Assembly: GCF_000235425.2 (NCBI RefSeq)
Contig: NZ_KI912266.1
Coordinates: 6,864,035-6,928,034, forward strand
DNA: 64,000 bases
Source of the DNA: Pseudofrankia saprophytica
Lineage (GTDB): Bacteria; Actinomycetota; Actinomycetes; Frankiales; Frankiaceae
Direction of reading: 5' to 3'
In this document: positions 8,968-56,481 of the stretch, one piece after another
Numbering within the stretch: the stretch's first letter is position 1
Layout: each line of letters opens with the position of its first letter
Notes under the pieces: model-generated
The model's input: the letters and a program-made list of their open reading frames with translations, nothing else
Told to the model about the DNA's origin: nothing
The model's database searches: none
Translations under genes and position numbers: made by a program

Positions 8968-10089
8968 ATGACAGCTTCCGGAGCCGGCGGCCGCCGCCGC
9001 GCTGCTGGGCGGCCCATGCCGCGCAGCAGCGGACCGGGCGACGCGTCACCCAGCTCCCCGGAACCCGGCCTCCCGGAATCCAGCGCCCCCGGACCCGGAG
9101 CCCCGGAGCCCAGCGCCTCGGCCGCCACGCCGGCGGTCGAGGCCCCCACGGCCGGCCCTGGCCCTGGCCGTGGGGCTGGCCTTGGCCGTGGGGCTGGCGC
9201 GGGTGCTGGCCGTGGCCGTGGTCGGGCCCGCCGTGCGCCGAACCGGAGGGTGTGGCGGCTGCGACGGCGGCGTGGCCACCGGGATGGCGGGCTGCCGTGG
9301 CCTCTGGTCGTGCCGGCGGCGCTCGGCGCGTTGTTGCTGCTGCTGCCGCTGGTCGGGCTGGTGTGGCGGGGGCCGTGGGACGAGCTGCCCCGGCTGCTGC
9401 GCGAGGAGGGCGTCCGCCAGGCGCTGTGGCTGTCGATCCGTACGGCGACCGCGGCGACCGTGCTTTCCCTCCTGCTCGGCGTCCCGCTGGCGTGGCTGCT
9501 CGCGCGGGTGGAGTTCCCCGGGCGGGGGTTGGCCAGGGCGCTGGTGACCCTGCCGATGGTGCTGCCGCCCGTCGTCGGCGGCGTCGCGTTGTTGCTGGCC
9601 GCCGGCCGGCGCGGCGTCGCGGGGCGCTACCTGTACGACGCGTTCGGCGTCAGCCTGCCGTTCACCACCGCCGCCGTCGTGGTCGCCCAGACCTTCGTCG
9701 CGATGCCGTTCCTCGTCGTCGCCGTCGAGGGCGCGCTCCTCGGCGCCGACCGGCGTTACGAGGACGCAGCGGCGACGCTCGGCGCCTCCCCCTGGTACAC
9801 GTTCCGCCGGGTCACGCTGCCGTCGGTCGCGCCGTCGGTCGCCGCGGGGGCCGTGCTGTGCTGGGCGCGGGCGCTCGGCGAGTTCGGCGCGACGATCACC
9901 TTCGCGGGCAGCCTCCCCGGCACTACCCGCACGATGCCGCTGGCCGTCTACTCGGCGATGGAGAGCGACTCGGACGCCGCGATCGCCCTTTCCCTCGTCC
10001 TGCTCGTCACCTCCGTCGTCGTACTCTCCGCCCTGCGCGGGCGCTGGCTGCCCACCGCGCGCGACGCCGTCAGCCGGGCGGCGGCATGA
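8968..10089 (+). CDS. modB: Molybdate ABC transporter permease
   Basis: A 373-residue permease whose conserved part starts near residue 108 (WPLVVPAALGALLLLLPLV). Five or six membrane helices follow, and the EAA loop that contacts ModC is visible (EDAAATLGASPWYTF with downstream P). The first ~100 residues are an unusual Pro/Ser-rich then Gly/Arg-rich low-complexity extension with no counterpart in ordinary ModB. They may be a late addition, or the real start may lie downstream. Its stop overlaps the modC start (ATGA), indicating translational coupling. Confidence 0.92.
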   Translation: MTASGAGGRRRAAGRPMPRSSGPGDASPSSPEPGLPESSAPGPGAPEPSASAATPAVEAPTAGPGPGRGAGLGRGAGAGAGRGRGRARRAPNRRVWRLRRRRGHRDGGLPWPLVVPAALGALLLLLPLVGLVWRGPWDELPRLLREEGVRQALWLSIRTATAATVLSLLLGVPLAWLLARVEFPGRGLARALVTLPMVLPPVVGGVALLLAAGRRGVAGRYLYDAFGVSLPFTTAAVVVAQTFVAMPFLVVAVEGALLGADRRYEDAAATLGASPWYTFRRVTLPSVAPSVAAGAVLCWARALGEFGATITFAGSLPGTTRTMPLAVYSAMESDSDAAIALSLVLLVTSVVVLSALRGRWLPTARDAVSRAAA

Positions 10090-13736: not shown

Positions 13737-15550
13737 GTGTTCACATCCTCCGGAGTCTGCGCCGCCGCTACCGGCTCAGCCGCGGTCGCGGTCGCGGCGC
13801 GGGCCGCGGCGGCCTCGTCGGACAGGCGCCGCGCGGTCTCCCGGCCCCAGACCGTGTCCGGCTTGCCGGCAGGGTTGCGGACGATTGTATCCAATATATA
13901 TATCTCCTTGGGCGCCTTGTACCCAGCGAGGTGCTGACGGGTGTGAGCGATGAGCTCCGCGGCGCTCGGCGGCGCCGTCGCCGGCGCGCGCAGCGCGACC
14001 AGCGCCACGACCCGCTCGCCGTACCGCTCGTCCGGCACGCCGACGACCGCGACGTCGAAGACCGCGTCGTGTGTCTTGAGCGCGTCCTCGACCTCGTCGG
14101 GGAAGACCTTCTCGCCGCCGGTGTTCACCACCGTGCTGCCGCGGCCGAGCAGCTGGACGGTGCCGTCCTCACGAGCCAGGGCGAGGTCGCCGGGCACGAC
14201 CCAGCGGACGCCGCGGGTGTCGCGCAGGAACGTCGCGTCGGTCTTCTCGCTGTCCTTGTAGTAGCCGAGCGGGATGGCGCCGCGCCGCGCGATCCGCCCC
14301 GGTTCCGGCGAGCCCGGCGGGACCGGGTCGAGGTTCTCGTCCAGCACCGCTGTGTCCCCGGTCAGCTGGAACACCCGCTTCCCGCCGTTCGCGCTGCCGT
14401 TGTGGCCGAACTCGGACGCGCCGTAGGAGTCGAGCAGGAACACGTTCGGCAGCGCGGCGGCGAGGTCGTCGCGGACCTGGCCGGACATCGGCGCGCCCGT
14501 GTTCGAGAACGCCAGCAGCCCGGACAGGTCATAGCGGCCCGGGGCCGCCAACAGCGCGTCGGCGATAGGCCGGGCCATCGCGTCGCCGACGACCGTCATC
14601 GACGTCGCCCGTTCCTCGGCGGCCAGGCGCAGCACGCCGTCGGCGTCGAAGTGGCGGCCGCACCAGATCACGGCCGTCCCAGCGGTGCCGACGCTGATCA
14701 GCAGGCTGAGCTCGGCGGCGCCGTGCATGAGCGGCGCCATGATCAGATAGTTCAACGGCGGGTTCGCGGTGTGGGCGAGGATGTCGGCAAGCGCCCGCGG
14801 CGTGGACCCGTCCGGCAGCGGGCGGCCGATCGCGGCGTGGAACAGGTCCTCGTGCCGCCACAGGACGCCCTTGGGCATACCGGTGGTGCCACCGGTGTAG
14901 AGGACGAACACGTCATCCCCGCTGCGGGCGGTGCGCACCGGGCCGTCGTCGGCCGGCTCGTCCTCGTATCCGACCAGCCGGATCCCGCGGTCGGCGAGCG
15001 CGCCGCCGGGGCCGGCGAGCGTGCCGAGCCCGCCGTCGTCGGCCGGGTCGGTGCCGTCCTCGAGGACGACCAGCACCCGCAGGTCCGGCGCGTCGGCCAG
15101 GATCTCGGCGACGGTCGGCAGGTAGCGGCGCTCGACGACCATCGCCACCAGGTCCGCGTTGACGGCGAGATAGCGCAGCTCGGCGGGTACGTAGCGAAAG
15201 TTGATGTTGATCGACGACGCCCGCAGCTTCATGCAGGCGAACATCGACTCGACCCACTCGGCCCGGTTGACCGCGTAGATCCCGACGTGCTCGCCGGCGC
15301 GCACGCCGGCCCCGCGTAGCAGCCGGGCCGCCCGGTCCATGCGGGCGTCGAGCTCGCCGAACGTCAGCCGGACCGGCGGGGCCACCAGCGCGAGCCGGTC
15401 GGGCACCGCGTCGGCCATCAGCTCGAGCATGTCCGCGAAGTTGATCGGCTCGGGCTCGGGCTCCGACCCGGTCCCCGGCCCGGCGCTCCGGCTGAGCTCC
15501 GACCCGCTTCCCGACTCGTTCTCCGGCTCGTTCTCCGGCTCGATGCTCAC
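13733..15550 (-). CDS. fadD19: FadD19-like steroid-CoA ligase
   Basis: An AMP-forming acyl-CoA synthetase closely resembling mycobacterial FadD19 (remembered, not searched): ADMLELMADAVPDRLAL start, NINFRYVPAELRYL, LLYTGG-type loop VLYTGGTTGMPKGV, WRHEDLFHA, GDAMARPIADAL, IPLGYYKDSEKT and the end VRNPAGKPDTVWGRE. FadD19 activates C26/C24-branched sterol side-chain acids. A Glu/Ser/Pro-rich stretch of about 37 residues precedes the conserved part. Near the C-terminus a short AT-rich patch uses two ATA codons (see findings). The gene follows the binding-protein gene by 45 bp and probably shares a promoter near the KstR-type site at 17323. Confidence 0.78.
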   Translation of the reverse strand: MSIEPENEPENESGSGSELSRSAGPGTGSEPEPEPINFADMLELMADAVPDRLALVAPPVRLTFGELDARMDRAARLLRGAGVRAGEHVGIYAVNRAEWVESMFACMKLRASSININFRYVPAELRYLAVNADLVAMVVERRYLPTVAEILADAPDLRVLVVLEDGTDPADDGGLGTLAGPGGALADRGIRLVGYEDEPADDGPVRTARSGDDVFVLYTGGTTGMPKGVLWRHEDLFHAAIGRPLPDGSTPRALADILAHTANPPLNYLIMAPLMHGAAELSLLISVGTAGTAVIWCGRHFDADGVLRLAAEERATSMTVVGDAMARPIADALLAAPGRYDLSGLLAFSNTGAPMSGQVRDDLAAALPNVFLLDSYGASEFGHNGSANGGKRVFQLTGDTAVLDENLDPVPPGSPEPGRIARRGAIPLGYYKDSEKTDATFLRDTRGVRWVVPGDLALAREDGTVQLLGRGSTVVNTGGEKVFPDEVEDALKTHDAVFDVAVVGVPDERYGERVVALVALRAPATAPPSAAELIAHTRQHLAGYKAPKEIYILDTIVRNPAGKPDTVWGRETARRLSDEAAAARAATATAAEPVAAAQTPEDVNT

Positions 15551-15595
15551 GCCACCGCTCCAAAGTAGATCATGCCGACGCCCACGCGGGACCGC

Positions 15596-17068
15596 TCAGC
15601 CGGAGACGTCGGTGAAGGTGTTGGCGAGTGTCGCGACGTTCTTGTCGTCGCAGTTGAAGAAGCCCTTGTTCGGGCCGGTGGCGTCCTTGTCGTAGACGAA
15701 GCCGTCCGGCGTGACCTTCATCAGCAGGTAGCAGTTCGTGGTCTTCTGCTGGCCGGCGACGAGGTTGCGCTCCGGGTAGAGGCCGCCGGCGGTCCAGGCA
15801 CTCTCGGCGCCGGCCTTGCCGAGCACGCAGTCCACGGTGAGGTCGTCGCCGCAGGCGGTCGCCGACTTGGCCCACAGCACCCAGGCGTTGAGGGACAGCG
15901 CGGTGAAGTCGGTGAGCTTCGCGTTCGGGACGGTCGCGTGCACGAGGTCGACGGCCTCCTTGGTCACCGGGCTCTGCGAGGCCAGCTCCCAGGGGATGTG
16001 GTCGATCACGACGTACGTCGTCGGGAACTTGGTCGCCTTGGCGGCCTGGATCGTCAGCGGGTCGTACAGCTGGTTCTCGAAGATCATGAACTTGAGCGAC
16101 AGGCCGACGTCGTTCATCGCGGTGACCAGCGGCGACGGGTCCTGCAGGCCGATCGGCTGGTAGCCCTGCACGCCCTTGTTCTTGAGCTGCTCGACGAACG
16201 GGCGGAAGTTCGTGACCAGCGGCGGCAGCTCCTGGTAGTCGGCCACCGTGTAGCCGGTCTGGGTGAGCGCCTCCTGCAGCCGCAGGCCCTGCGGGCGCAG
16301 CGTCCCGAGCGTGCTGCCGCCGACGCCGAGCGACTTCATCGCGTCCGGGTACAGCCGGGCCATCGACTGGAAGCCGCCGATCGGGTACCGCGCGGCCGTG
16401 TTCGGCTGGGCGCGCACCTGCAGCTTCGCGTTCAGCGCCTCCGGGGAGACGCCGTAGGCCGGGACCGAGCCGAGCTTGCACTCCTCGCGCGGCTGGACGC
16501 CGGGGGCGTCGACGGCGTTGCCGCCACCGACGATCATGAAGTCGGTCTGGCAGGCGTCGATCATGCGGGCGGCGACGTCGGTCAGCTTGCCGTCGTGCTT
16601 GTTGAGGACCAGCTCGCGGCCGTTGATGCCTCCGGCCTTGTTGCACCAGGCGACGAACGCCTCGCCGACGTCGAAGAACTCCTGGCCGAGGCCCGGCGTG
16701 ATGGTGCTGCCGGGGTCCCCGAAGGTACCGAGCGTGATCGAGCTGGCGGTGACGCCGCGGCCGGTCGCCTTCGAGGCGGTGCCAGGGCCGCAGATGCCCT
16801 TCTCGGTGCCGAAGTCGCCGGCAGCCGCGGCGGCCGGCGCCGACGTGGCCGGGGCGCCTGAGCCGCCCCCGCCCGTCTCGGTCTCGTCCGTCGAGCGGGT
16901 GCAGCCGGCGACGACGACCAGCAGCACGCTGGCCGCGGCGAGAACCGGGACGAGCCGTGCGCGCCGGCGGTCGGCTGGCGGGCCAAAGGGCGTGCGAAAA
17001 TGATCTTTCTTCGCACGCCCGGCGGCCGTTGTCCCGAGCAACACCGGGAGGACGTGTCTGCGGGCCAT
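15596..17068 (-). CDS. Liv-type ABC transporter substrate-binding lipoprotein
   Basis: A 490-residue type-1 periplasmic binding protein (LivJ/LivK fold). The lipobox VVAGC follows a hydrophobic helix about residues 39-56, then a Gly/Thr linker. The binding domain begins with ITLGTFGDPGSTITPGLGQ and contains WCNKAGGINGREL, a family hallmark. The ATG at 17068 has GGAGAGG upstream, but the first ~35 residues are abnormal: part of them is encoded by a 47-bp palindromic repeat (16981-17027). It is a candidate ligand-binding partner for the Liv importer near 57-61 kb, since both have KstR-type sites upstream. The ligand may be a steroid or side-chain fragment rather than an amino acid. Confidence 0.82.
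   Translation of the reverse strand: MARRHVLPVLLGTTAAGRAKKDHFRTPFGPPADRRRARLVPVLAAASVLLVVVAGCTRSTDETETGGGGSGAPATSAPAAAAAGDFGTEKGICGPGTASKATGRGVTASSITLGTFGDPGSTITPGLGQEFFDVGEAFVAWCNKAGGINGRELVLNKHDGKLTDVAARMIDACQTDFMIVGGGNAVDAPGVQPREECKLGSVPAYGVSPEALNAKLQVRAQPNTAARYPIGGFQSMARLYPDAMKSLGVGGSTLGTLRPQGLRLQEALTQTGYTVADYQELPPLVTNFRPFVEQLKNKGVQGYQPIGLQDPSPLVTAMNDVGLSLKFMIFENQLYDPLTIQAAKATKFPTTYVVIDHIPWELASQSPVTKEAVDLVHATVPNAKLTDFTALSLNAWVLWAKSATACGDDLTVDCVLGKAGAESAWTAGGLYPERNLVAGQQKTTNCYLLMKVTPDGFVYDKDATGPNKGFFNCDDKNVATLANTFTDVSG
16981..17027. repeat. 47-bp palindromic element, copy 2 (inside a CDS)
   Basis: GGGCGTGCGAA at 16988-16998 pairs perfectly with TTCGCACGCCC at 17010-17020, flanked by GGCC on both sides. 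It lies in frame within the N-terminal coding region of the Liv-type binding protein, where it encodes residues around GRAKKDHFRTPFGPP. Length and arm sequences match the copies at 37121, 37181 and 40711. Confidence 0.65.
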
Positions 17069-52730: not shown

Positions 52731-52836
52731 TTCATGATCTGGTGGGATTTTCGGAGCCATGGATATGCGTGTCTCAGGACATACAGTCATACGACTGTCC
52801 AGACCTGCGCTTGCTTGACGCTTGCTAGAGCAAGCG
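52731..52836. repeat. Left imperfect inverted repeat of a 3.5-kb island
   Basis: TTCATGATCTGGTGGGAT, TTCGGAG, GTGTCTC, ACATACAGT and GACCTGCGCTT occur here in order, and in the same order on the opposite strand from 56223 down to about 56125. The overall match is about 75-80% by eye over ~85 bp. The inner end carries the hairpin CGCTTGCT-AG-AGCAAGCG (52819-52836). Confidence 0.75.
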
Positions 52837-53402
52837 CCGCTCGGGTCGATCCGTTGGCGATCTTAGTGCGTGCTGCTGTCGGCGGGGCGTGACAGTCGCT
52901 GTAGGCGGGGCGTGGTGGAGGCATCCAGGTGGGTCCAGAGAGGCAGTTTGAGGGCTGCGGCCCATGTCCCCCGCTACCTGCTACAGAATGCGGTGTGTGG
53001 TGGTCGGTGGGGGTGCGGGGTGTAGCGGCGGGTGTAGCGCTGTCGCGACCCCGCCGCATGTCGCTCCACGTCGGCGCGTTCGCGTCGCGGACTGGACCAG
53101 CGTAGCGGCCGCTGTTGCATTCGGTTCGCTTTAATAGCCGGAGCACTTGCGCCACAGCGGAGGTCTTCGACGGCCGGAGCGATCGCATGCCGATACCGCG
53201 AAGCATAGAATGACACTCCGAGGCGGTCTGAGCGAAATTCTGACGCGAACCCGGCCCTGAAGGGGTCGAGAAATAGGCCAACGCCGTACAGCCCTCCGCC
53301 CGCAGCCACCAACCGAACAACCCTCCAACTCACCCAGCAAGACTAATTACCGAAAAGCATTGTCATCGAGAATCGCCTATAGCGAGGGAAAGGTTAAACC
53401 TA
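52837..53402. other. Non-coding left part of the island
   Basis: No credible ORF. GC content and codon structure look lower than in the flanking genes. No tRNA or integrase is visible. Confidence 0.4.
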
Positions 53403-53765
53403 GTGGCCATACGGCCGGGGAAAAGGAACGGAATAATTCTGAAACTCGAAGTGGAGCGTACGCTCATCGAGGCAGGTCTTCTCATGGCGCCGCCGCTCCA
53501 GATGGCTCTCTGCTCTGGGTTCTATATCGAGCCGTCCGATCTCCGGCCGCTGGAGGAGATCCCGGACCCGAGTATCGCCGTAACGTGGCTGGTTCACCCA
53601 AATCTGCGAGAGAAATATCCCACGGCATGGCCAGAAGCGCGCGAGATGCAGAGCGCGCGAGATACTATGCTCGTCGCCATAAAAAGTATTTTGGAGTTTG
53701 CGGGCTTCGAGGTTGAGGTGGACGACAATGAAATGCCCGACTTTCTCTTTGTGAGCTATCCGTGA
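53403..53765 (+). CDS. Small orphan protein of unknown function
   Basis: A 120-residue protein with a GTG start after GAGGGAAAGG. The sequence looks protein-like (VTWLVHPNLREKYPTAWPEA, MLVAIKSILEFAGFEVEV, then an acidic patch and LFVSYP) with AT-richer codons than the neighbours. No family recognised, no signal peptide or membrane helix. It is convergent with the XRE-TPR regulator gene and lies inside the island. Confidence 0.5.
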   Translation: MAIRPGKRNGIILKLEVERTLIEAGLLMAPPLQMALCSGFYIEPSDLRPLEEIPDPSIAVTWLVHPNLREKYPTAWPEAREMQSARDTMLVAIKSILEFAGFEVEVDDNEMPDFLFVSYP

Positions 53766-53853
53766 TGGATGCCATCCGGGCGTGATGGAGCGATCGAATC
53801 GGCACGTGACTGCCACCGGGTCGGGCGCCCTGGGTGCGGCGCTTTCGCTGACG

Positions 53854-55080
53854 CTAGTCCTCCCCCCTTGGGCGCCGCATCGCTTCGTAAACAGCTTTTA
53901 GATCGCTGGCCCTGGAAAAACGCTCCTCCTGCATGGCGTCCGCTACTTCCAATATTCGCCAGAAATGCGAAGGCACGATCTTTCCTGATTCGACTGCTCC
54001 CATTGCCGCGTGGAGCGCCTCATCACTTTTTCCCATGTAGGTAAGCGTCAGTGCAAGGTCGATGCTTGCCATCGCGGCCCGCCGTGGCCAACGAGCGGGA
54101 GCGGACATCGGGGCGCCAATCTTGGTGATCACTTCGCGGGCGAAGTCCTCGGCGGCCGAGTCACGTATCCATGTCAGTGTCGTGGCCGTGTAGGAAACGG
54201 CTTTCGCAGGATCGTACCGATAGTGATGTTCCGGGCGGGTAGGATCACTGAGCGATGATGCCATCTTCTGAACGCGGCCGATCGCCCTGTACGTATCGCC
54301 GCGTGATCCCAGGCGTGCCCATCCTCGGCCTTCCTGTGCTGCCGCTTGTATCATGATCGAACTTCCGTGTGGAGCGAAACTTTGCGCTGCGCGTGACAGG
54401 TCGACGGCCATGCGGAAGTCGCCGGAGGTCAGCGCCTGCCACGCTCGCGTTTCATAGCACCATGCGATGATCTCGGGGTTCTCTGCCTGCTCCGCAAGGC
54501 TCATCGCGGTGGCCAGATAGGTGGACGCGGCACGGTCGCGTTTCAGGTCGATAAGAACCGTCGCGCCCAACAGCGACAGCCAGCCCCCGACCAGCAGAAG
54601 CCGACGGTGCTCATGAAGCGTTTTCCGAGCATCCAGCAGTTTCCCGACGTTGCTTAACGACTGGTTGATCTCCAGCAGGATCCGGCTGGGGTGCTCGAAC
54701 TGATACCGGCACGCCAGATCGTCGAATCCGGACTCAAGATAGGTGAGCGTCGCGTCTCCTACGTCGCTCGCCGCGACCCGTCGAGCAAGTTCTCCCGCTT
54801 CATCCGAGTCTTCCTGCGCCGAGGCCACGGCGATAGAAAAGACGTCCGATGTGTGCCGCGTAGGTGGCGCCGCCGAAATAAGCCGGTCAAGTTCGTGGTA
54901 GTCGACGCCCAGCGCCTTGGCTAGTCCGCTTCGGTGCTCGGGGTAGGGTTCCGTTCTTCCTTGTTCCCAGCGTGCGACTGTCGATCGATCGACGCCGACG
55001 GATTCGGCTAGCCCTTCCTGGCTGTAGCCCATGGCCTTCCGCCGCGCGGCAAGCGCGGGTCGCTTCTGGGGAGTCGGCAC
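53854..55080 (-). CDS. XRE-family regulator with TPR-like sensor region
   Basis: A 408-residue protein. Residues about 8-65 form an XRE helix-turn-helix (ARRKAMGYSQEGLAESVGVDRSTVARWEQGRTEP in blocks). The rest is a series of helical repeats rich in small residues (YLATAMSLAEQAENPEII, ALTSGDFRMAVDLSRAAQ, DLALTLTYMGKSDEALHAA) typical of the TPR-type sensor domains of Streptomyces/Frankia XRE regulators that respond to peptides. The GTG start has GGAGG eight bases upstream. It is the only clear regulator in the island and is transcribed away from the GTAACC motif cluster. Confidence 0.85.
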   Translation of the reverse strand: MPTPQKRPALAARRKAMGYSQEGLAESVGVDRSTVARWEQGRTEPYPEHRSGLAKALGVDYHELDRLISAAPPTRHTSDVFSIAVASAQEDSDEAGELARRVAASDVGDATLTYLESGFDDLACRYQFEHPSRILLEINQSLSNVGKLLDARKTLHEHRRLLLVGGWLSLLGATVLIDLKRDRAASTYLATAMSLAEQAENPEIIAWCYETRAWQALTSGDFRMAVDLSRAAQSFAPHGSSIMIQAAAQEGRGWARLGSRGDTYRAIGRVQKMASSLSDPTRPEHHYRYDPAKAVSYTATTLTWIRDSAAEDFAREVITKIGAPMSAPARWPRRAAMASIDLALTLTYMGKSDEALHAAMGAVESGKIVPSHFWRILEVADAMQEERFSRASDLKAVYEAMRRPRGED

Positions 55081-55306
55081 GCTGGTCCTCCGCGTCGGCT
55101 GCCGGGCTCATGGAACGGTGCTCGCCTCAGTATGCGCCGAACGCATGCCCTGCACCGAGGATGCGCCACAGACGCCCTCGCCGCACTCGCGCGGATACCT
55201 GACGCTCAGTGACAAGCCCCCGGGCCGGCCAAACCACCACCCGACCGGCCCGGGGTGCCCGAACGGATGACAGCCACGCTCAGGTCCTTGGGCACGTCAA
55301 AGGTGG

Positions 55307-55495
55307 ATGTGTGAAATGGGCAGTAGGTATCGGCGCAGACGTCGCCCTCGGCGTCAGCTTGGCTCGTGGACCGTCGCCATCGTCGACAACGGAAAAGGCC
55401 CAAGACTCACATGGGTGCGGCTCTACCACCCCCATGAACACAATCATCGAGACACCGCGAAGGCCGCTGGTTTAACCCGCCCACTTCAACCCTGA
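55307..55495 (+). CDS. Possible small basic protein
   Basis: A 62-codon frame: an Arg-rich start (RYRRRRRPRR) and a plausible folded end (WTVAIVDNGKGPRLTWVRLY, then a His-rich HPHEHNH). GTG at 55307 follows AAAGGTGG; an ATG is three codons later. It may be a real small regulator-associated protein, but length and composition leave it uncertain. Confidence 0.35.
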   Translation: MCEMGSRYRRRRRPRRQLGSWTVAIVDNGKGPRLTWVRLYHPHEHNHRDTAKAAGLTRPLQP

Positions 55496-55555
55496 AGCCA
55501 TTCATCGCGCCCATGGCCACGCCGCGCGCGCCGCGCGCCGGGACGGGCAAGGGGT

Positions 55556-55716
55556 GTAACCGCCGGCCCACAGCGTAACCGCAGGGTTACCCCCCTGGTT
55601 ACCTCCCGTACCATCCCTGACCAGCGCAGATGCCACCGTGTAACCGGTAACCGCGCAGCCCGACACTCGCTCCGAACCGCCTCTAACGCGGTCCAGCCCA
55701 CCGCCGACGTGGTTAC
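55556..55716. repeat. Cluster of seven GTAACC motifs
   Basis: GTAACC or its complement GGTTAC occurs at 55556, 55575, 55585, 55597, 55640, 55647 and 55711. In GC-rich random DNA far fewer than one would be expected in 161 bp. The motifs sit 5' of the XRE-TPR gene and are arranged in both orientations, as in operator arrays or replication/transfer iterons. Confidence 0.75.
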
Positions 55717-55899
55717 CCGCTACCGCCCGCACGCGCTACCGCACGGTGTTGGGGGTGCATACCTCGTCAACCATAACCGGATTCATCAACAGCACGGATC
55801 ACTTCAGTTCGCACCACAATTATGATCTTCATATGGTCCCATGCCCCTGCCCCTGCCCCGGCGGCGTCCGCCTTGGACCGTCGGCGAGATCGCGTTCAT

Positions 55900-56004
55900 C
55901 CTGTCCGACGTCGCGGCGAATCCTGTCCGACGTCAGGGGCGCGGCCGGTGCGATCTCGTGCCCCTGACGTCGGACAGGAAATCACGATTGCCTCAGACGT
56001 CTGA
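55900..56004. repeat. 20-bp perfect inverted repeat plus related palindromes
   Basis: TCCTGTCCGACGTCAGGGGC (55921-55940) and GCCCCTGACGTCGGACAGGA (55960-55979) form perfect 20-bp arms 19 nt apart. CTGTCCGACGTC also occurs at 55900-55911, and the palindrome TCAGACGTCTGA lies at 55993-56004. So four half-sites of one motif are packed into about 100 bp. Confidence 0.85.
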
Positions 56005-56124
56005 CACGACGCGAGACAGGAAGGGCGGGCGGGCATTGCGAGGCGGCGCTAACTCTTGTTAGCAATTCGCTTGCGCCAGCTAGCATTTTGGCCCGGTGGC
56101 TCAGTCGGGATTCCATCGCCTCAC

Positions 56125-56223
56125 CTGCGCTTGCTGAAGTAAGCGCAGGTCAGAACCCCGCTTCTCACTGTATGTGCCGAGACACGTAACGCTATGACTC
56201 CGAAGATCCCACCAGATCATGAA
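56125..56223. repeat. Right imperfect inverted repeat of the 3.5-kb island
   Basis: The reverse-complement counterpart of 52731-52816. Its inner end forms the hairpin ACCTGCGCTT/AAGCGCAGGT (10-bp arms). Just inside it, near 56048-56063, is the short hairpin GCTAAC-TCTT-GTTAGC. Confidence 0.75.
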
Positions 56224-56312
56224 CGGCTCGCGTGTCTGGGGCAGGGGCGCGGGGGCGGTGGGCAGGAAGGGAGCAGGAGAGCGGGAGAGCAGGAGAGCAG
56301 GAGCGGGAGCGG

Positions 56313-56476
56313 GAGAGCAGGAGCAGGAGCGGGAGCGGGAGAGCAGGAGCAGGAGCGGGAGCGGGAGAGCAGGAGCAGGAGCGGGAGCGGGAGAGCAGGA
56401 GCAGGAGCGGGAGCGGGAGAGCAGGAGCAGGAGCGGGAGCGGGAGAGCAGGAGCAGGAGCGGGAGCGGGAGAGCAG
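56313..56476. repeat. 26-bp minisatellite, six to seven units, purine-rich strand
   Basis: Units start GAGAGCAGGAGCAGGAGC and add GGGAGCGG; they recur at 56313, 56339, 56365, 56391, 56417, 56443 and 56469, exactly 26 bp apart. Shorter GAGAGC repeats precede (56285, 56293). The plus strand is almost entirely purine plus C. It ends right at the stop of the minus-strand membrane gene at 56482 and is probably its 3' non-coding DNA. Confidence 0.92.
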
Positions 56477-56481
56477 GAGCG

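Follow-up and report, generated by a model that had tools for sequence, protein, structure and literature searches.

The window analysed here (64,000 nt of the Pseudofrankia saprophytica genome, contig NZ_KI912266.1) contains, at positions 52731-56223, an island that probably descends, in strongly reduced form, from one or two actinomycete integrative and conjugative elements (AICEs), and that is inserted in the loop of a palindrome resembling repetitive extragenic palindromes (REPs). AICEs are moved as double-stranded DNA (dsDNA) by the FtsK-like protein TraB. This reading builds on the insertion itself, on the architecture of two arrays of clt type, on the loss of the tra, rep, and int genes, and on the lack of a TraB of the matching clade in the same genome (G000). 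Other genomes are designated G001, G002, G003, G005, and G006, with L numbers for loci and C numbers for contigs or replicons.

Insertion of the Island into a Dispersed Palindrome

The initial annotation had described the island as bounded by imperfect inverted repeats with a hairpin inward of each, and had proposed a non-autonomous element or a remnant. Both structures are real. Positions 52731-52787 are 84% complementary to 56167-56223 across 57 nt, and a further inverted block (52797-52816 and 56137-56156) is 85% complementary across 20 nt; the top 57-nt inverted match was 48/57, far above the maximum of 31 among 60 dinucleotide shuffles. The repeats consist of two superposed things: the outer ~30 nt are the arms of a dispersed palindrome, PAL-A, and the next ~20 nt together with the hairpin are the insert's own. 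Because their outer halves belong to PAL-A, the repeats are not simple terminal inverted repeats (TIRs) of a transposon.

The outer ~30 nt of each arm recurred in the genome, with 38 BLAST matches and 80 half-sites found by pattern (a control pattern gave 0). Most half-sites pair into a 58-bp palindrome with a 6-nt loop, which is PAL-A, present in dozens of copies. The two window arms, joined at AT, fold as a perfect hairpin. Uninterrupted copies have 6-nt loops such as CCATGG, and the window loops are CCATGG and CTATGA, with AT at the dyad centre of both. Uninterrupted copies also carry two unlike conserved flanks, an A side and a B side. In a flank profile built from 36 copies, the right flank of the island matched the A side (18.0 bits beyond TGAA, a score matched by 0/20000 random 24-mers) and the left flank matched the B side (7.6 bits, p 0.034), while the reverse assignment, with the left flank as the A side, was rejected. 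Since the two flanks match opposite sides of PAL-A, comparison with the uninterrupted copies identifies the two arms as halves of one unit, with an insertion of ~3.43 kb exactly within its 6-nt loop. The terminal blocks are thus dispersed repeats, which the initial annotation had counted against a mobile island, yet only this copy was split by this insert. At the ends, only a possible duplication of 2-3 nt was seen. PAL-A is a REP-like family with asymmetric conserved flanks (examples at L003 1505, L021 473, and L217 8065); it also occurs in G001 and G005 and was not seen in G003, G006, and G002 at the thresholds used.

When the island flanks were joined without the PAL-A arms and used as a query, they matched contiguously in G001:C142 (87%) and G005:C234 (85%). 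In both genomes, the GNAT gene and the convergent 150-aa gene lie only ~55-90 bp apart, with neither PAL-A nor the island between them. The empty site that the initial annotation had suggested looking for therefore exists, the locus is not fixed in all relatives, and the island is an insertion with defined junctions, absent from two relatives, as expected of an AICE remnant or a mobilizable integrating element. A 26-bp tandem repeat (GAGCAGGAGCGGGAGCGGGAGAGCAG) at 56267-56480, between the island and the convergent 150-aa gene, is likewise absent in G001 and G005.

The inner inverted repeat alone matched at 18/20 positions, against a maximum of 15 among 400 shuffles (0/400 reached 18). Beyond the loop, the island ends match each other only from ~8 nt inward, and the outermost ~8 nt of the insert (E1) are mismatched. 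When joined at AT, the inner repeats form a 56-nt, P-like dyad. Searches of the genus and of 35 genomes of the order turned up no further copy of the ends that belong to the insert; a lone viral-contig match to the inner repeat was AT-rich and was judged to be chance.

Other PAL-A loops of the same genome are split by a second multi-copy family, E2, which has conserved non-inverted ends (AGAGCGAGGAACCGAAATTACTCAGG and CTCTGGCACGCAAGAACGCAAT; Table 1). Its cargo varies and includes a TIR-WD40 protein, Fic/Doc with RHH, an HIT protein, and an HflX-like N-terminus; among the copies examined, no transposase of any kind was recognised. Elements of more than one type have therefore landed in an actinobacterial dispersed palindrome.

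Predicted clt Arrays and Probable traB Remnants

Within the window, 7/18 GTAACC/GGTTAC hexamers fall in 55556-55716. Window positions 55556-55724 and 52971-53079 matched arrays of other genomes, which in G001, G002, and G006 lie directly 3' of a gene of ~710 aa. The family of this gene is homologous to TraB in NC_007431 (31%, E 1e-19), which we take to be pSVH1, a 12.65-kb plasmid of S. venezuelae, and also to many plasmid proteins annotated as FtsK/SpoIIIE; the TraB clade itself had no sequence match in Pfam, NCBIfam, or PDB. The aligned arrays contain up to eight pentamer GTARC boxes at near-fixed offsets (0, 19, 30, 42, 84, 91, 156, and 163), and box 1 overlaps the traB stop codon. Such an overlap was found in >10 independent loci, and the type of array tracked the class of TraB and not the presence of an XRE gene. 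An array was found 3' of traB wherever the sequence sufficed; it is cut short by other DNA in L218 and by the contig end in L160, and has fewer boxes in L251. Sites of transfer recognition have been described for a small number of Streptomyces plasmids, and the position of the GTARC arrays suggests that they are clt, the DNA site to which the TraB/FtsK-type conjugative translocase would bind.

Arrays of the GTAAC class accompany a TraB C-terminus of the form SVAV/SIAV..QVQKG (L134, L219, L159, L218, L220, and L222), and arrays of the GTAGC class accompany SVDV/SVNV..QVRKG or QVLKG (L118, L071, L130, L073, L221, and L251, as well as L160, where the array ends at the contig end). The fold model of TraB was poor overall (pLDDT 39), with a C-terminal winged-helix region at pLDDT ~65-82; in this model of low overall confidence, the class-distinguishing residues fall in predicted wing strands. 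The link between box class and TraB wing is a correlation over few independent events, and the classes may be two clades.

The island retains AICE-type cis sites of both classes. The first, the predicted site clt1, is intact, with 8/8 boxes and the same spacing as L071 and L073. Compared with L134, its boxes are identical at 39/40 nt and its inter-box sequence at 75/127 (Fisher p 4.5e-7). Its last box, GCTAC, has the form of the other class, and a similar mixture occurs in some intact arrays (L159). The reading frame that ends at the TAA of box 1 gives PEAIHRAHGHAARAARRDGQGV before the stop, resembling a TraB C-terminus (AAIRDAHQRR..) over ~20 codons. The second, clt2, is located toward the left end, points the other way, and keeps 4/8 boxes; the adjoining traB end reads RRERADV-E, with the stop TAG changed to GAG. 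The orientations of the two sites would place both lost traB genes toward the island interior, and so two elements may have contributed. Of the FtsK-like traB/tra gene of a complete AICE, there are just these probable 3'-end remnants beside both arrays.

The only match in the same genome to the left 664 bp of the island, beyond weak ones, is a further GTAGCG array on the second replicon (L077 5001-5044; C2:937000-937043), ~600 bp from a 172-aa open reading frame (ORF) resembling one beside the L227 array. It is probably another AICE relic. Furthermore, L133 14348-16185 (G006:C187) combines a serine recombinase gene with a GTAGC-class clt-like array, with no homolog of the clade TraB found nearby, and the same arrangement occurs at L227 7183-10121 (G001:C25) and L132 ~14878-16478 (G005:C147). 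These three loci are candidate tra-less mobilizable elements.

Starting from the intact array of the island, comparison thus defined a clt layout for Pseudofrankia/Frankia AICEs. The site can be searched without traB, which exposes stranded or mobilizable elements overlooked by gene-based AICE searches. This definition and the correlation with TraB are the main general gain.

Genes and Other Features of the Island

The contents listed in the initial annotation are present (the 120-aa ORF, the XRE-TPR gene, the 62-aa ORF, the GTAACC motifs, and a 23-nt inverted repeat; Table 1), and, as it had stated, no transposase or integrase ORF was found in 52731-56223. Of the genes of a complete AICE, this interval also lacks a recombinase ORF and a replication initiator ORF. 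The XRE-TPR protein is 82% identical to a G003 protein, with a dN/dS of 0.16 against the homolog in G003:C244, and the small basic protein, encoded divergently from it, has a dN/dS of 0.17; both ORFs are therefore real genes. Large NsdA-related XRE proteins are a standard regulator type of Frankia AICEs (PMC3218068), and the regulator of the island, as an NsdA family member, is of this AICE type. Proteins of the 62-aa type recur beside an XRE-TPR/NUDIX cluster that is common to G001 and G005 (L120 8736-10115 and L121 10422-11951). Searches with the 120-aa ORF in Pfam, in plasmid, phage, and viral-contig sequences, and in 35 genomes of the order gave no match, and its structure model was poor (pLDDT 40).

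PAL-B, the inverted repeat that the initial annotation gave as 20 bp, also occurs in G001, G003, and G005, with many copies in G003, and some E2 copies contain it within their right end. Its Rfam match was a sub-threshold miRNA and was judged to be chance; Rfam gave nothing else.

Table 1. Positions of island features, of comparison clt arrays, and of E2 copies.
Feature	Position	Strand	Remark
Left PAL-A arm (TTCATGATCTGGTGGGATTTTCGGAG + half loop)	52731..52758	+	Flanked outward by CGGTGTCGCAC, the B side of PAL-A
AT at exact dyad centre, possible recombination core	52759..52760	.	Same AT at 56194-56195
Inner left inverted repeat CGTGTCTCAGGACATACAGT, part of insert, possible attP half-site	52768..52787	+	18/20 with 56167-56186 inverted
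Left hairpin PAL-C (ACCTGCGCTTGC..GCAAGCGC)	52803..52837	+	Recurs near AICE-like genes of relatives
clt2, decayed, GTAGC class, with adjoining traB 3' remnant	52945..53110	-	74-79% to arrays 3' of traB in G006, G002
Orphan 120-aa ORF	53403..53765	+	No homolog found
NsdA-family XRE-TPR regulator	53854..55080	-	NF053720 116.5 bits, cutoff 75
59/62-aa basic protein	55316..55495	+	Homologs beside XRE-TPR genes in G001, G002, G003, G005
Probable 3' remnant of deleted traB (..PEAIHRAHGHAARAARRDGQGV, stop)	55476..55559	+	Reading frame and position; TAA inside clt box 1
clt1, intact, eight-box, GTAAC class, predicted	55556..55723	+	Boxes at offsets 0,19,30,42,84,91,156,163; last box GCTAC
PAL-B dispersed palindrome	55891..55979	.	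15 or more other sites in the same genome
Right hairpin PAL-C	56123..56150	+	Fold and inverted-repeat match
Inner right inverted repeat ACTGTATGTGCCGAGACACG, possible attP half-site	56167..56186	-	Pairs with 52768-52787
Right arm of split PAL-A	56192..56223	+	Flanked outward by CGGCTCGCGTGTCTGGGG, the A side of PAL-A
Eight-box clt in L134	14596-14763		Directly 3' of traB
Eight-box clt in L071	2275-2445		Directly 3' of traB
Eight-box clt in L118	~9700-9870		Directly 3' of traB
E2 copy in L122	9439-15877		
E2 copy in L124	7774-10970		
E2 copy in L126	11307-12168		
E2 copy in L137	8928-9789		
Further E2 copy in L128	7767/10258-12468		
Further E2 copy in L123	10491		
Further E2 copy in L125	5352		
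Further E2 copy in L127	10823		

Origin of the Island and Alternative Explanations

Descent from AICEs would imply deletion of traB, rep, and int. Entry may have occurred by site-specific recombination at the dyad centre of the palindrome, with AT as the core, in which case the inner repeats would represent half-sites of attP. AICE-like elements of the genus commonly carry large serine integrases, and no serine-integrase gene of the same genome lies near its split PAL-A copies. For a serine-integrase att reading of the ends, no cognate integrase or intact attP was found, though AT stands at both dyad centres. Because clt1 is complete, mobilization of the island in trans by a helper is possible in principle: a GTAAC-class TraB of an incoming AICE could still bind clt1, and the island could then be moved in trans or pull the neighbouring chromosome along. 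Since no TraB of the matching clade was found in this genome, the island is at present probably carried along silently, together with a functional pair of XRE and small-protein genes.

Several points weigh against an origin from AICEs. Without an integrase, a rep gene, or a full tra gene, the case for this origin consists of non-coding sites, a regulator, and short remnants. The traB remnants, of ~20 codons, are weak as sequence matches, and the binding of TraB to the boxes is inferred. The XRE/62-aa pair also occurs outside AICEs (G001:C160 and G005:C265), and the search for further copies of the insert's ends found none, which leaves no integration enzyme to assign.

An IS110/IS1111-type RNA-guided recombinase that targets REP-like palindromes and carried AICE debris as a passenger is an unlikely source of the island. 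REPs are documented targets of insertion sequences (ISs; PMC1525189), and E2, which lacks terminal inverted repeats, also splits PAL-A loops; however, no DEDD transposase is encoded in the island or was recognised in the E2 copies examined, the ends of E1 differ from those of E2, and the ~20-bp inner inverted repeats of E1 are unlike IS110. With neither a cognate enzyme nor an attP found, such a route keeps a small share of the probability. It also seems quite improbable that the island is a minimal dual-specificity hitch-hiker without tra, rep, and int, which would hold a clt for each TraB class, travel in trans with any AICE that enters the mycelium, and land on palindromic repeats.

A non-autonomous DDE transposon, or an element resembling a miniature inverted-repeat transposable element (MITE), would have the whole 57-85 bp repeats as its TIRs, with the solitary 58-bp palindromes as products of internal deletion. 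The long inverted repeats, the absence of both PAL-A and insert from relatives, and a 3-bp ATG duplication readable at the two ends would agree with this. However, conserved flanks surround the palindrome in other PAL-A copies, and the island has an A flank to its right and a B flank to its left, an arrangement indicating that no mobile unit ends at the palindrome. Furthermore, the outermost bases of the insert are unmatched, and no second copy with these inner ends was found in the genus, which makes a transposon of this kind very unlikely. The proposal of a non-autonomous element or remnant thus stands in outline, as the island is lineage-specific, inserted, and without its own recombinase; its ends are not simple transposon TIRs, and the clt sites, traB 3' remnants, and NsdA-like regulator point to a derivative of a conjugative element rather than of a transposon. 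A chromosomal regulatory module, with the GTAACC/GTAGCG repeats as operators of the XRE-TPR and small-protein genes, is highly improbable: both genes are under purifying selection and the pair is chromosomal in G001 and G005, but the arrays overlap the traB stop and follow the class of TraB rather than the XRE gene, and the site in relatives is empty.

Comparison with Known Systems

Integrated elements without tra or rep have been described (Ghinet et al. 2011, PMC3218068), and the island resembles them in being integrated, in missing such genes, and in its NsdA-like XRE regulator, typical of Frankia AICEs. Unlike them, it lacks tra, rep, and int together, lies in a REP-like palindrome instead of a tRNA gene, and keeps an identifiable clt. 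In Streptomyces, traB-less remnants and defective AICEs, possibly mobilized by helpers, have also been described (PMC9513070). ISPsy8, ISPa11, ISPpu9/10, and ISRm22 target REP palindromes (Tobes and Pareja 2006, PMC1525189) and share with the island the insertion into dispersed palindromes, whereas the island has no transposase, has contents of AICE type, and occupies the loop of an actinobacterial 58-bp palindrome.

The predicted clt arrays resemble the clt/TRS of the Streptomyces plasmids pSVH1, pIJ101, pJV1, and pWTY27 as repeat arrays at or near the 3' end of a traB-type gene (PMC3583192). The pWTY27 array overlaps the traB-type gene, and the plasmid arrays are read by the FtsK-like Tra protein where studied (PMC3583192). 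The arrays described here differ in their pentamer GTARC boxes, conserved eight-box layout, and two sequence classes. With its dsDNA TraB/clt system in place of a relaxase, oriT, and type IV secretion system, and without its own integrase, the island is also unlike integrative mobilizable elements of the Salmonella genomic island 1 type, but, like them, it would be moved in trans by a helper element.

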